Of a DNA stretch of 34,280 nt, positions 7,425 to 11,747 are shown one piece after another. The position numbers and the translations under genes are program-made. Each line of letters opens with the position of its first letter. The first letter of the stretch is position 1. The stretch is from an uncultured bacterium (lineage in GTDB: Bacteria > Cyanobacteriota > Vampirovibrionia > Gastranaerophilales > Gastranaerophilaceae): the NCBI GenBank assembly GCA_949293185.1, contig CASFCQ010000042.1, forward strand, positions 1-34,280, written 5' to 3'. The notes under the pieces are model-generated. The model was not told the DNA's origin. It worked only from the letters and a program-made list of their open reading frames with translations, and did no database searches.

Positions 7425-7430
7425 TATAAT
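7425..7430 (+). promoter_or_regulatory. -10 box before the adhesin leader ORF
   Basis: A consensus TATAAT lies 28 bases before the ATG at 7459. No -35 box at normal spacing is evident (TTGAAT at 7391-7396 is too far away). A transcript starting near 7437 would carry the AAGAGG ribosome site at 7446-7451. Confidence 0.45.
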
Positions 7431-7458
7431 AGATGGAAATTTTTTAAGAGGTTGTAGT

Positions 7459-7548
7459 ATGTATGATATTAATAACAAAACAAAGCTCAAAAACCTTGAA
7501 GGACAAGGGTTTTACCCAAATGGGGGGGGGGGCTTGAACAGTCTTTAG
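7459..7548 (+). CDS. Short leader ORF containing an 11-G tract, possible phase-variable start of the adhesin
   Basis: The ATG at 7459 is preceded seven bases upstream by AAGAGG, the best translation start in the area. Reading through gives MYDINNKTKLKNLEGQGFYP, then Asn, then glycines encoded by a run of 11 G (7522-7532), and a TAG at 7546-7548. With 9 or 12 G the frame would instead run without a stop into the adhesin frame to 11747. In the sequenced state it encodes only 29 residues. Whether this is an annotated start or a vestige is inference; the frame arithmetic is directly visible. Confidence 0.55.
   Translation: MYDINNKTKLKNLEGQGFYPNGGGGLNSL
7522..7532 (+). repeat. Homopolymeric G11 tract
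   Basis: Eleven consecutive G in an AT-rich genome lie just upstream of a surface adhesin gene and within the leader ORF. Tracts of this kind slip during replication in known phase-variable loci of other bacteria. Confidence 0.95.
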
Positions 7549-7558
7549 TACAATCATC

Positions 7559-7815
7559 CTCTCTTTCCAAGAGAGAGAACAAGCGTGATATAAAATCCTC
7601 TCCGGCGGGAGCGAAATTGGACGGGCACGCCGTGTCGAAGACCCAGTGCCCACGTGTAGGCAAACCACGCTTTGCCGAAACGTCCAATTTCAAGACAGAG
7701 GGCAGGGTGAGGGTCGATAATACACATTACCAGCCTTGTGATTCTACATCCAGCCGGTCAGATTCTGAACACACTCAATCCTCGCATAACCACAACGATG
7801 AAAGCTTCAGAATGA
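7559..7815 (+). repeat. Structured repeat inserted between leader and adhesin signal peptide
   Basis: CTCTCT/AGAGAG forms a small hairpin at 7559-7575. The main structure has outer arms GAAATTGGACG (7613-7623) and CGTCCAATTTC (7681-7691), perfectly complementary over 11 bases. These enclose two hairpins, GGGCAC/GTGCCC (7623-7628 with 7646-7651) and GGCAAA/TTTGCC (7659-7664 with 7671-7676), a three-way-junction layout. The right end (TCAGAATGACGAAT, 7808-7821) resembles the dispersed AGAATGACGAAT repeat also at 11966-11977. The region is open in the adhesin frame, so it could be translated as an unusual N-terminal extension. Confidence 0.6.
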
Positions 7816-10800
7816 CGAATTTTATAAACAAAGGGGTAAAACTGGCACAAACAGCCGCCTTGACCCTTGCATTATCCTTCTTCATCGCAGCACCGGCAAT
7901 GGCGAATAATACCCCGCCTGTCCCTGCGGCTAAAACGGACAATTCTGTATATCAGCTTGTGGAAACACCTTCTGCAGGTGAAAATACTATAACAAAGTAC
8001 GAATATAACGAGGCAGACAAAACTCTTACCCCTACGCACTATGAACTGCAGCTGAATAATCTGAATTTAGTTTCTGACAGCGGTAATATTTATCTTAACT
8101 GGGGAGATGCAGAGAATGACGACGGCATAAGTTTACCTGTTTTGTCTCCGTCAGATAAACCAATTGGTGATTATATTACTATAAATGTTGATGAGAAAAA
8201 TAGCTATATGTCGCAGGACAGACCTGTTGACAATTCTCACGCTCCCGTGGACGGGTTCTTTTTATACAATAATCAGGCTGTTTTTAATTGTAACGGAAAC
8301 TATGTTGAATCTGTAGCCGGATATTATATTAATAACAATAGTGCAATAATGAATATGGGCGGTTATATATCATCAATTGACGGTGTCTTTATTAATAACT
8401 ATGCTGATGATGGCGGTGCTATTTATAATACGACGCGAACTGCTCCGTATTCAGAGGATATTAATTATCAAATAGATGACATAAAAGGCACATTTATTGC
8501 GAATACAGCCGGCGTAGGTGGTGCTATAGCTAATGACTATGGGAATATCGGCAATATAAATGCGGATTTTATACAAAATATTGCATTTGAGACGCGTGAT
8601 GAAGCTATAGGCGGTGCTATAGCCAACAATCAAGGCTATATTAACTCCATAAACGGAAACTTTTATAAAAACTCGGCAATTAGTGGTAGTTACAATGCTA
8701 TTGGCGGAGCTATTCTCAACAGTGATGCCTATATTAATACAATAACCGGTAGCTTTAACGGAAACAGTGCCGTTGTTAACGGAGATGGTAACGCTTCTGG
8801 CGGTGCTGTAGCTAATTTTAATTTGGGAAGTCGTCCTGCATCTATAGACACTTATGACCAACCTGCTCCATTCGAGCCGAGTCCGGATAATATCGGCAGC
8901 ATAAATGCGGATTTTGTTGAAAATAAAGCAGTTGTGACAACTGATGACGACTATGGACATGCACAAGGCGGTGCTATATTTAATGCTTATTCTTCCATAG
9001 GTTCAATCAACGGCAATTTTTATAAAAATTCCGCTCAGGTTAAATATACAGAGCCGGAGGGACAGTCTGTTTCTACGTATGCGACTCCGGATTTTACTCA
9101 ACAGAATTTTTATGCGTACGGAGGCGCTATCTCCAATACTGATACCGGTGTTATCGGCAAAATCTCGGGAAACTTTGTAGAAAACTCTGCCGTAGCTGAG
9201 AATGCAGCTTATTCATCTGCTCTTGGCGGCGCGGTATTCAATAGTTCTTATAACTATTACTTCCAGACTCAGGTAGAAAACGTTAGTGTTATAAATGAAT
9301 TTGATATGGATCATAGTCCTGCTAATGCATTGAATATACAGGATGCAAATTTTATAAATAACTATGCAACCGCAACTGCAGAGCTGCGCAACGAAAAATA
9401 CCTTGACCCTGTTTATGCCTATGGCGGTGCTGTGGCTTCAATAGCACAAAATGAAATTAATGTGTCTAATTTTTTGTCCTTGAATGATATTAAAGATATT
9501 CTTTTAGATGCAGGACAGGATATAAAAGGTTTGTCTGACAATGAACTTGTTGATTTGTACATAAAAACCGGAAATGAAACGGGTAATGGTTTGTATTATA
9601 CAACTGACTCAAACATTACAAACCCAAAAATCTCTAATTCATATTTTGAAGGCAATAAAGCAGAAGCCAACGGAGATGAATACTCTTTAGCTCTGGGCGG
9701 TGCAGTGTATTCTTCCTTAAGGGAACGAAAAATTGCTGCCGGCAGCTTAGATGAAAGAAGTGCTAATATTCAATACTATGACAACGGCGATTCTGCAATG
9801 GTGATAACAAACTCCTCATTTGTGAACAACACAGCCTCGTCCCCTGATGGTACAGCCAAAGGCGGTGCAATATATTCCGAAGGCAATTTGACAATAAATG
9901 CCGACAACGGTGTATCCTTGTTCAAAGGCAACAAGACTGTTGACAAAAACGGTGAAGTATCCAATGCCATTTATATGGCAGGACATATATATTCTGCAGA
10001 AAATGAAGCGCTAAACAGCACTTTGCCTGACGATTCTTCTTATTACTACGAAATTACCCCGGCAAAGCTTACACTTAATGCAGTGAATAACGGCGTTATT
10101 CAAATAGATGACAAAATCGCAGGCGGGGCGATGAATGAAAATTACCATTACGGTGCGTCTGAGGCTTCTTTAGATACCCGTGAAGCGATGTCACCGGAAC
10201 AGGAATTGTTATACAACAGTCCGTTTATAGAAACCGAAGAAACAGCTTACAGTTTAAAAGTCACAGGCGATAAAACCGGCAAAGTCATTTTAAACAACGA
10301 CGTAATTAATGCCAACATATCTTTAGACAACACAAACCTTTACTTAGGTCGAGAAAATGTATTTGACCAATCCCAATCATTGACCCTCAACTCCGGTTCA
10401 ATGTATATGAACAACGATTCCGTCGGCTTGATGAGTATTCCGTCGTTTACCCTTGCCGGCGACACAAACCTTTCTGTCGATGTAGACCTTGCCTCAAAAA
10501 CCATGGACAGAATCACTGCAGAAAAATATAATATAACCCCTGACGCGCATTTAAATGTAAATTATTTAAATCTTTTATCCGACGCAAAAGAGGACAAAAC
10601 TCTTGTTCCGTTTGCGGAAACAGAACTAAAAGGCAATGTAGCATACACAGGCGCATCCCCAATAGCCTACAGCCCGATATACAAATACGACGTAAGCTAT
10701 CTTGATAATACGGGTGAGTTCTTGTTCGTTCGCGGCGGCGGCGCTGCGCCAAGTTCGCCCAACGCATACAACCCTGCAGTTTTAACAACCCCCGTAACAA

Positions 10801-11747
10801 CACAGGCAGGTGCATATACAACCCAACTCCAAACATTTAACTACGCGTTCCAGCATGCGGATAACTTCATGATGTTTCCGTCTATAGAAAGAACAGCCTT
10901 TAAGTCGGAAAACAAATATGCAATGACGCCGAACGCGGGAGTATTCTCACCGTTAATGACTCCTTCTTATCAAAATAACATCTGGGTAAAACCGTATGCA
11001 TCGTTTGAATCTATTCCGCTTAAAAACGGTCCGAAAGTTTCTAACATCAACTACGGAACTTTGGTCGGCTTTGACAGTAAATTGGAAACTCTAAGTAACG
11101 GCTTTGAAAGAATATTAACAGGCTATATCGGCTACAACGGTTCAAGCCAGAGATATCAGGGTGTTGATGCTTATCAAAACGGCGGCTTACTCGGCGGAAC
11201 AGCAACCTTCTATAAAGGCAACTTCTTTAACGCAACAACTTTGTCTGTAGGTGCAAGCGCCGGTGATGCAAATACTATGTACGGTTCTGAAAACTATACA
11301 ATGTTACTCGCCGGTATAGGAAATAAAACAGGTTACAACTTTGAGTTTAAAGACGGAAAATTTATATTCCAGCCGGCAATGCTATTGAGCTATTCTTTTA
11401 TTAATACATTTGATTATACAAACGCTGCAGGCGTAAGAATAGACTCTGACCCGCTGCACGCAATTCTGTTGTCGCCGGGTTTGAAATTCATTATGAATAC
11501 AGAAAGCGGCTGGCAGCCGTATCTTGCAGTCGATATGACATGGAACATTCTCGATGAAACAAGAGTAATGGCAAACAGCGTCAGACTTCCTGACATGAGC
11601 ATAAAACCGTATGTGTCTTACGGAGCAGGTATACAAAAACGATTTAAAGATGATAAGTACACAGCTTTCGGGCAAACAATGGTGCATAACGGCGGACGCC
11701 GCGGTGTATCGTTAACCTTCGGACTCAGATGGAAAGTGGGGAAATAG
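7812..11747 (+). CDS. Pmp-like autotransporter adhesin (type V secretion)
   Basis: This is a predicted outer-membrane surface protein of 1311 residues from the ATG at 7812. A clear signal peptide (TAALTLALSFFIAAPAMA) is followed by a passenger domain with at least eleven GGA(I/V) motifs, each near an FxxN motif (FIANT, FYKNS, FVENS). These are the hallmarks of chlamydial polymorphic-outer-membrane-protein repeats, which fold as a beta-helix. From about residue 1045 a 12-strand-type autotransporter barrel begins (NNIWVKPYASFES) and ends FGLRWKVGK. Typical roles are adhesion or autoaggregation; the ligand is unknown. The frame stays open upstream to 7500, with a TTG at 7617, but the signal peptide argues for 7812, even though its ribosome site is poor. 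The frame could also be joined to the ATG at 7459 by a one-base change in the G tract. No terminator hairpin with a T-run follows. Confidence 0.9.
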   Translation: MTNFINKGVKLAQTAALTLALSFFIAAPAMANNTPPVPAAKTDNSVYQLVETPSAGENTITKYEYNEADKTLTPTHYELQLNNLNLVSDSGNIYLNWGDAENDDGISLPVLSPSDKPIGDYITINVDEKNSYMSQDRPVDNSHAPVDGFFLYNNQAVFNCNGNYVESVAGYYINNNSAIMNMGGYISSIDGVFINNYADDGGAIYNTTRTAPYSEDINYQIDDIKGTFIANTAGVGGAIANDYGNIGNINADFIQNIAFETRDEAIGGAIANNQGYINSINGNFYKNSAISGSYNAIGGAILNSDAYINTITGSFNGNSAVVNGDGNASGGAVANFNLGSRPASIDTYDQPAPFEPSPDNIGSINADFVENKAVVTTDDDYGHAQGGAIFNAYSSIGSINGNFYKNSAQVKYTEPEGQSVSTYATPDFTQQNFYAYGGAISNTDTGVIGKISGNFVENSAVAENAAYSSALGGAVFNSSYNYYFQTQVENVSVINEFDMDHSPANALNIQDANFINNYATATAELRNEKYLDPVYAYGGAVASIAQNEINVSNFLSLNDIKDILLDAGQDIKGLSDNELVDLYIKTGNETGNGLYYTTDSNITNPKISNSYFEGNKAEANGDEYSLALGGAVYSSLRERKIAAGSLDERSANIQYYDNGDSAMVITNSSFVNNTASSPDGTAKGGAIYSEGNLTINADNGVSLFKGNKTVDKNGEVSNAIYMAGHIYSAENEALNSTLPDDSSYYYEITPAKLTLNAVNNGVIQIDDKIAGGAMNENYHYGASEASLDTREAMSPEQELLYNSPFIETEETAYSLKVTGDKTGKVILNNDVINANISLDNTNLYLGRENVFDQSQSLTLNSGSMYMNNDSVGLMSIPSFTLAGDTNLSVDVDLASKTMDRITAEKYNITPDAHLNVNYLNLLSDAKEDKTLVPFAETELKGNVAYTGASPIAYSPIYKYDVSYLDNTGEFLFVRGGGAAPSSPNAYNPAVLTTPVTTQAGAYTTQLQTFNYAFQHADNFMMFPSIERTAFKSENKYAMTPNAGVFSPLMTPSYQNNIWVKPYASFESIPLKNGPKVSNINYGTLVGFDSKLETLSNGFERILTGYIGYNGSSQRYQGVDAYQNGGLLGGTATFYKGNFFNATTLSVGASAGDANTMYGSENYTMLLAGIGNKTGYNFEFKDGKFIFQPAMLLSYSFINTFDYTNAAGVRIDSDPLHAILLSPGLKFIMNTESGWQPYLAVDMTWNILDETRVMANSVRLPDMSIKPYVSYGAGIQKRFKDDKYTAFGQTMVHNGGRRGVSLTFGLRWKVGK

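Follow-up and report, generated by a model that had tools for sequence, protein, structure and literature searches.

A G tract between a short leader and a Pmp-like autotransporter adhesin as a probable phase switch in an uncultured member of the Gastranaerophilales

The window, by which we mean the whole 34,280-nt stretch of DNA analysed, is contig CASFCQ010000042.1 (contig C42) of assembly GCA_949293185.1, a 2.196-Mb, 95-contig genome (G000) from an uncultured bacterium of the Gastranaerophilaceae. Within it, a short leader open reading frame (ORF) runs into a tract of 11 G, and a gene for a large autotransporter follows. The features of this region are listed below, with the basis for each call in brackets where it matters.

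7425 to 7430, plus strand: TATAAT string, a possible -10 box (sequence match)
7446 to 7451, plus strand: AAGAGG, Shine-Dalgarno-like (sequence)
7459 to 7548, plus strand: leader ORF with start ATG 7459 (7459 to 7461), 29 aa, unfused at G11 (sequence, translation)
7463 to 7537, plus strand: overlapping leader ORF from a second ATG, 7463, in another frame, 24 aa, unfused at G11 (translation)
7522 to 7532, plus strand: G11 homopolymer tract, the proposed slippage switch (sequence)
7533 to 7811, plus strand: open stretch between tract and signal peptide, read in the frame of the adhesin, with no stop codon and with inserted repeats (translation)
7607 to 7714, plus strand: MITE-like repeat within this stretch, with a 99% copy at C40:539-646 and a partial one at C71:11638-11778
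7756 to 7816, plus strand: dispersed repeat of about 61 bp containing ATG 7812, with many other copies in the genome
7812 to 11747, plus strand: Pmp-like autotransporter adhesin read from an internal ATG with no Shine-Dalgarno match (translation, profile searches)
7812 to 7904, plus strand: signal peptide MTNFINKGVKLAQTAALTLALSFFIAAPAMA (translation, read by eye)
10977 to 11744, plus strand: 12-strand autotransporter beta-domain (paralogy, AlphaFold2, Foldseek)

The original prediction for this locus held that a -10 box, AAGAGG and ATG 7459 open an ORF that enters the G run and stops at 7546, and that 9 or 12 G would instead carry the frame into the adhesin. Most of this anatomy was confirmed: AAGAGG precedes ATG 7459, the run is 11 G long, the ORF ends at TAG 7546 to 7548 after 29 aa, and the frame beginning at 7533 has no stop before that at 11747. 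The -10 box fared less well. The TATAAT string is present, but a promoter scan gave no plus-strand sigma-70-like pair there, and we therefore treat the box as a string match. Since the 63-nt leader plus the tract must divide by three, ATG 7459 joins the adhesin frame when the tract has 9, 12 or 15 G, which excludes the present 11. The prediction did not mention a further start, ATG 7463. It lies in a different frame, meets a stop at 7535 to 7537, and by frame arithmetic would need a tract of 10 or 13 G for fusion; the equivalent frame is fused to the adhesin in a sister gene on contig C4. The ON lengths of a switch in the window thus depend on which of the two starts serves. The sequenced copy is in the unfused state, as had been claimed, and G11 leaves both starts out of frame. 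The locus has an uninterrupted simple-sequence repeat between start codon and coding body, and the length of the repeat sets the frame.

Read from ATG 7812, the downstream protein has 1311 aa. Its C-terminal 295 aa have paralogs with 35 to 75% identity in the same genome. An AlphaFold2 model of the C-terminus (pLDDT 70.6, pTM 0.71) contains 12 long strands, and the top solved structure in Foldseek is the beta-domain of the autotransporter BrkA (3qq2; E 7.8e-13, TM 0.70 by query, 0.82 by target). AIDA-I, EspP, Hbp and NalP rank next. With an N-terminal signal peptide, read by eye, and a modelled C-terminal 12-strand beta-domain, the protein has the build of a type Va autotransporter. The passenger carries 11 GGA[ILV] motifs against a shuffle mean of 0.19 (maximum 3) and 15 FxxN motifs against a mean of 6.2 (maximum 15), and so shows the repeated GGA(I,L,V) and FxxN motifs of Pmp proteins. 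The Pfam profile Chlam_PMP scored 16.3 bits, under its cut-off of 20.6 (E 0.011), and a search of the adhesin against NCBIfam gave no match. The label "Pmp-like adhesin" is thus borne out by the motifs and the autotransporter barrel but not by the Pfam cut-off. We rejected membership in the Chlamydia Pmp family on this score, and given the two profile results we describe the protein as a type V autotransporter that is Pmp-like but not a proven Pmp. By analogy with proteins of similar fold and motifs, it would be displayed at the cell surface and act in adhesion.

The window holds a single G/C run of at least 8, which gives 4 overlapping 8-mer matches where shuffles led us to expect 0.09. In the whole genome there are seven such runs, and six of the seven lie in leaders before the signal peptides of paralogous autotransporter adhesins; the seventh is within an AlgX-like gene. 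An order-1 Markov estimate from 85.6 kb predicts about 1.2 runs of at least 9 and about 0.04 of at least 11 for this genome, against 7 and 5 found. The leader is fused to the adhesin on contigs C8 and C18 (both C11) and unfused on C29 (C12), C36 (C10), C56 (C9) and C42 (G11, the window). The C36 adhesin also has a short duplication bearing a stop within the signal peptide. On contig C55, a near-identical leader without a tract is fused in frame. The paralog on C4 is 90% identical to the window over query bases 1 to 147, up to the tract, where it has only five G; its second ATG, the equivalent of 7463, is directly fused to the adhesin, and the ORF from its first ATG overlaps the start of the signal-peptide segment. 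In the paralog on C3 the tract is interrupted and there is no leader fusion.

The relatives of the N-terminal domain found in genome_contigs, 38 in number, are without exception MAGs named Candidatus Gastranaerophilales. Across the genus, we examined 75 distinct runs of at least 9, which occur in 17 of 23 genomes, and about 50 of them lie in adhesin-type leaders (45 by script and 5 by homology). The script seeks a start 31 to 115 nt upstream of the tract, with a Shine-Dalgarno test; 48 tracts were positive, and three of these (G000:C71, G015:C30 and G018:C102b) were discounted. The five leaders added by homology (G019 C7, C21 and C38; G017 C1 and C10) fail the Shine-Dalgarno test. All 11 of the tract leaders compared in G006 and G016 are out of frame. 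Several signal peptides in G016, G021, G006 and G017:C135 come directly after the tract with no intervening Met, for example YKPLKTKHFACSLTL... in G021, and ribosomes have to read through the tract to make such an adhesin, barring initiation at a rare start codon. We then used L236, a natural in-frame relative, as a query; of 286 genomes of the order, 54 had a match, and 13 of 50 genera are represented. Among the 40 match places retrieved for inspection, many (g33, g36, g10 and others) have a strong ribosome site (up to TAAGGAGGT) and then a leader of 42 to 75 nt; after this leader, 7 to 15 G and a signal peptide follow in g33, g36, g10 and other genera. Other retrieved loci have no tract and a plain Shine-Dalgarno-led ATG start. 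Viral origin or carriage was rejected, as none of 11 pattern-matching stretches in viral_contigs encodes a relative.

Not every tract appears to be in use. In the G019 type-B loci and in G002 C43 and C74, the signal peptide is cut off from the tract by stops, and the adhesin has a new ATG led by AAAGGA; from this arrangement the tract there is probably a relic. Four G019 loci (L204, L207, L210 and L231) share a common module, AAGGA plus the start MKKIFRKNKK..., which forms the new adhesin start past bypassed tract leaders.

The open stretch of the window is built in part of repeats. The MITE-like element has inverted ends GAAATTGGACG...CGTCCAATTTC, by eye, and a further copy lies in an adhesin leader of G019 (L178), where it is open in a frame other than that of the window. 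The dispersed repeat of about 61 bp reads ...SDSEHTQSS...FRMT and is in frame within several adhesin leaders. Copies of it also lie directly downstream of adhesin genes at contig ends, and it recalls in-frame palindromic elements. By itself, the open frame from 7533 to 7811 is weak support: 3.5% of Markov sequences are equally open over the same length. On account of this figure and of the G019 copy, we do not take the unbroken reading through the MITE as a strong argument.

Could the tract of the window be a relic as well? The adhesin would then be constitutive from ATG 7812, and the leader ORF would be a remnant severed by inserted repeats. A complete signal peptide does start at ATG 7812, repeat insertions (280 nt) lie between this ATG and the tract, and other relatives do bypass their tracts via new starts. 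However, ATG 7812 has no Shine-Dalgarno match, whereas the bypassing relatives gained AAGGA, and it sits within a dispersed repeat. The frame is open across all of the insertions, and G11 is long and uninterrupted, like the tracts of live relatives. We consider it unlikely that the tract here is such a relic.

We then considered the frames and lengths of the tracts. Our set consists of 48 distinct loci with a leader, a tract and a signal peptide, from several genera. Their tracts are 7 to 15 long and the frame classes number 16 fused, 16 and 16 (chi-square 0). Five of 53 rows (L129-, L149+, L159-, L186- and L192-) were dropped as wrong-strand or non-adhesin, and identical sequences were merged, so that copies with the same sequence around leader and tract, as at some G016 loci, contribute a single entry. 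The set leaves out loci that lack a strong start or whose signal peptide is separated from the tract by stops. The row of the window was scored from ATG 7463; its leader is off from 7459 too. In 35 of the 48 loci there is no ATG between the tract and the signal-peptide core, which makes the leader ATG the likely start; 41 have no start with a Shine-Dalgarno match of at least 4 in this interval, and both other frames are closed within 5 codons in 36. A Shine-Dalgarno-led start open into the tract is present in 40 of 50 tract/signal-peptide contexts; for control positions taken from these loci the figure is 63 of 1000. Since the loci share descent, all of these figures overstate independence. 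Of the ten contexts without a strong start, four are type-A leaders (one with GTG) and four are AlgX-like genes; the remaining two are a different gene and a reverse-strand artefact.

When loci with flanks over 85% identical were paired, 31 of the 37 pairs had tracts of unequal length, the comparison being between paralogs and between species. In the best-matching pair, L297 (genome G177, tract G9) is out of frame and L304 (genome G105, tract G11) is in frame; their flanks are identical at 179 of 180 positions, and the two loci share 94.7% identity over 1001 bp. Among paralogs and species, then, similar loci differ in tract length and occur as both in-frame and out-of-frame alleles, which is the pattern of a contingency locus.

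The same numbers bear on explanations in which the DNA does not change or the leader has another role. RNA polymerase or ribosomes could slip on the tract, and every cell would then make some fused protein; long homopolymers can provoke transcriptional or ribosomal slippage. But a slip that was selected and fixed should favour one frame class, and the 31 of 37 length differences and even classes point to slippage of the DNA, with the state left to chance. We regard this explanation as highly improbable for the locus. The leader could also be a regulatory upstream ORF (attenuator or translational coupling), with tract length tuning re-initiation, and the first-ATG ORF of C4, which overlaps the start of the signal-peptide segment, speaks for this. 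Against this, the second ATG of C4 fuses directly, and the 35 loci without an ATG before the signal-peptide core offer no place for re-initiation; a regulatory role of this kind seems very improbable to us. Finally, homopolymers are error-prone and many contigs of this 95-contig assembly end in adhesin genes, but an assembly error in a gene that is always in frame would cluster near one length, and with lengths of 7 to 15 over many assemblies and even frame classes we give this explanation hardly any credence.

These data suggest that the window holds a translational phase-variation (contingency) locus in which slippage of the G tract gates the fusion of leader and adhesin, and we put the probability of this reading at about 0.8. 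The phase switch of the original prediction gains support, by inference, from the mixed frames, the length differences between similar loci, the general lack of an alternative start and the autotransporter fold. Ribosomes would start at the Shine-Dalgarno-led ATG 7459, or at the weaker, out-of-frame ATG 7463, and cross the G tract; with the right length they would enter the adhesin frame and make the signal peptide and the autotransporter. Replication slippage would lengthen or shorten the tract by a single G or a few, and daughter cells would toggle between a fused (ON) and an early-stop (OFF) form. The sequenced G11 copy would be OFF from both starts. Slippage itself, the start used, surface display and adhesion we infer; the anatomy, the family, the mixed frames, the length differences between near-identical loci and the barrel fold are observed. 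Because the tracts of sister adhesins are in different states, cells would display shifting subsets of adhesins.

Two further analyses concern the leader and the slippage. In gap-free aligned clusters, which alone contribute to the pooled totals, variable columns of the leader codons number 17 at the first, 12 at the second and 13 at the third position. There is no third-position excess, and protein-level selection on the leader peptide was not seen; the role of the leader seems to be that of a run-in that can be translated, not of a conserved peptide. We do not claim the leader motif KPLS..ND.. as a functional peptide, since related leaders read the same DNA in two frames. MutL and two MutS-type matches are present in the genome. 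Loss of mismatch repair was therefore rejected as the driver, and slippage would occur despite repair.

The arrangement may extend beyond a single gene. We see about even odds that a portable cassette, consisting of promoter region, ribosome site, leader and G/C tract, stands before many adhesins, that at least six such tracts slip independently in a cell, that the switches of the window and of C4 are graded, and that combinatorial surface variation results. Two overlapping starts in different frames, ATG 7459 and ATG 7463 in the window and their counterparts in C4, where the second is the fused one, would make a graded rather than a plain on/off switch.

Tracts were also seen in other genes. 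An AlgX/DHHW-like sugar acetyltransferase gene (Pfam was run on two of the four) has an internal C10 to C11 tract in four species, at G000:C71:8773 (L129), L166 (G002), L153 (G008) and L174 (G019). All four tracts are in frame with the upstream part despite their differing lengths, and this is possibly a second switchable surface gene. In L193 (G021:C2:76343), at about locus position 1544, a G12 tract lies between flagellin-like N-terminal and RTX-type calcium-binding stretches that are in different frames, a possible switchable fusion in which the flagellin label comes from reading the sequence, not from a database match. Runs of 9 to 12 G/C occur in pyruvyl-transferase-like and methyltransferase-like genes at L142 (G020:C3), L133 (G009:C2) and L149 (G015:C30); these genes could help to modify surface sugars.

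The best-known examples of switchable surface adhesins come from pathogens of mucosal surfaces, such as Neisseria, Haemophilus, Campylobacter and Moraxella. Neisseria pilC and Moraxella hag/mid have poly-G switches in the 5′ coding part of surface protein genes, in other phyla and other proteins than those of the window. The Campylobacter autotransporter gene capD, as described in PMC7168839, has poly-G in its coding sequence with predicted frame inactivation, while the tracts of capC are upstream of the start codon and show no correlation with intact status. Like capD, the window combines an autotransporter gene of a gut bacterium with a G homopolymer in the coding sequence. Unlike capD and capC as described there, it comes from an unrelated lineage, and the tract is in a short leader before the signal peptide, repeated in many paralogs. 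In Chlamydia, poly-G was suggested to vary the expression of PmpG, the sole poly-G case named among the four Pmps studied in PMC4488443. The adhesin shares with the Pmps the GGA(I,L,V)/FxxN repeats and the autotransporter barrel, and with PmpG the poly-G tract. It differs in that Chlam_PMP stays below cut-off, and the likeness seen is one of motifs and fold. Haemophilus influenzae lic1A and lic2A have several start codons in different frames before the repeat, and only some lengths are fully OFF, according to PMC4019658. The window likewise has starts in different frames before its repeat, and both may be used. Unlike the window, lic1A and lic2A carry CAAT tetranucleotide repeats, in lipooligosaccharide-modifying genes (PMC4019658).

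With poly-G known in capD and suggested for PmpG, the kind of mechanism is already known. The lineage appears to be new for it, as do the copy number per genome and the recurrence of the design of leader, tract and signal peptide in several genera. Searches of open-licence PMC literature, as distinct from subscription journals, under the names Gastranaerophilales, Melainabacteria and Vampirovibrionia gave no paper on such a switch in this lineage. The finding would place the switch logic of mucosal pathogens in an uncultured, commensal-type, non-photosynthetic cyanobacterial lineage. Since leader, tract and signal peptide form one pattern, adhesin states can be read per genome or per read set, which makes surface variation in the Gastranaerophilales directly testable from existing metagenome reads.
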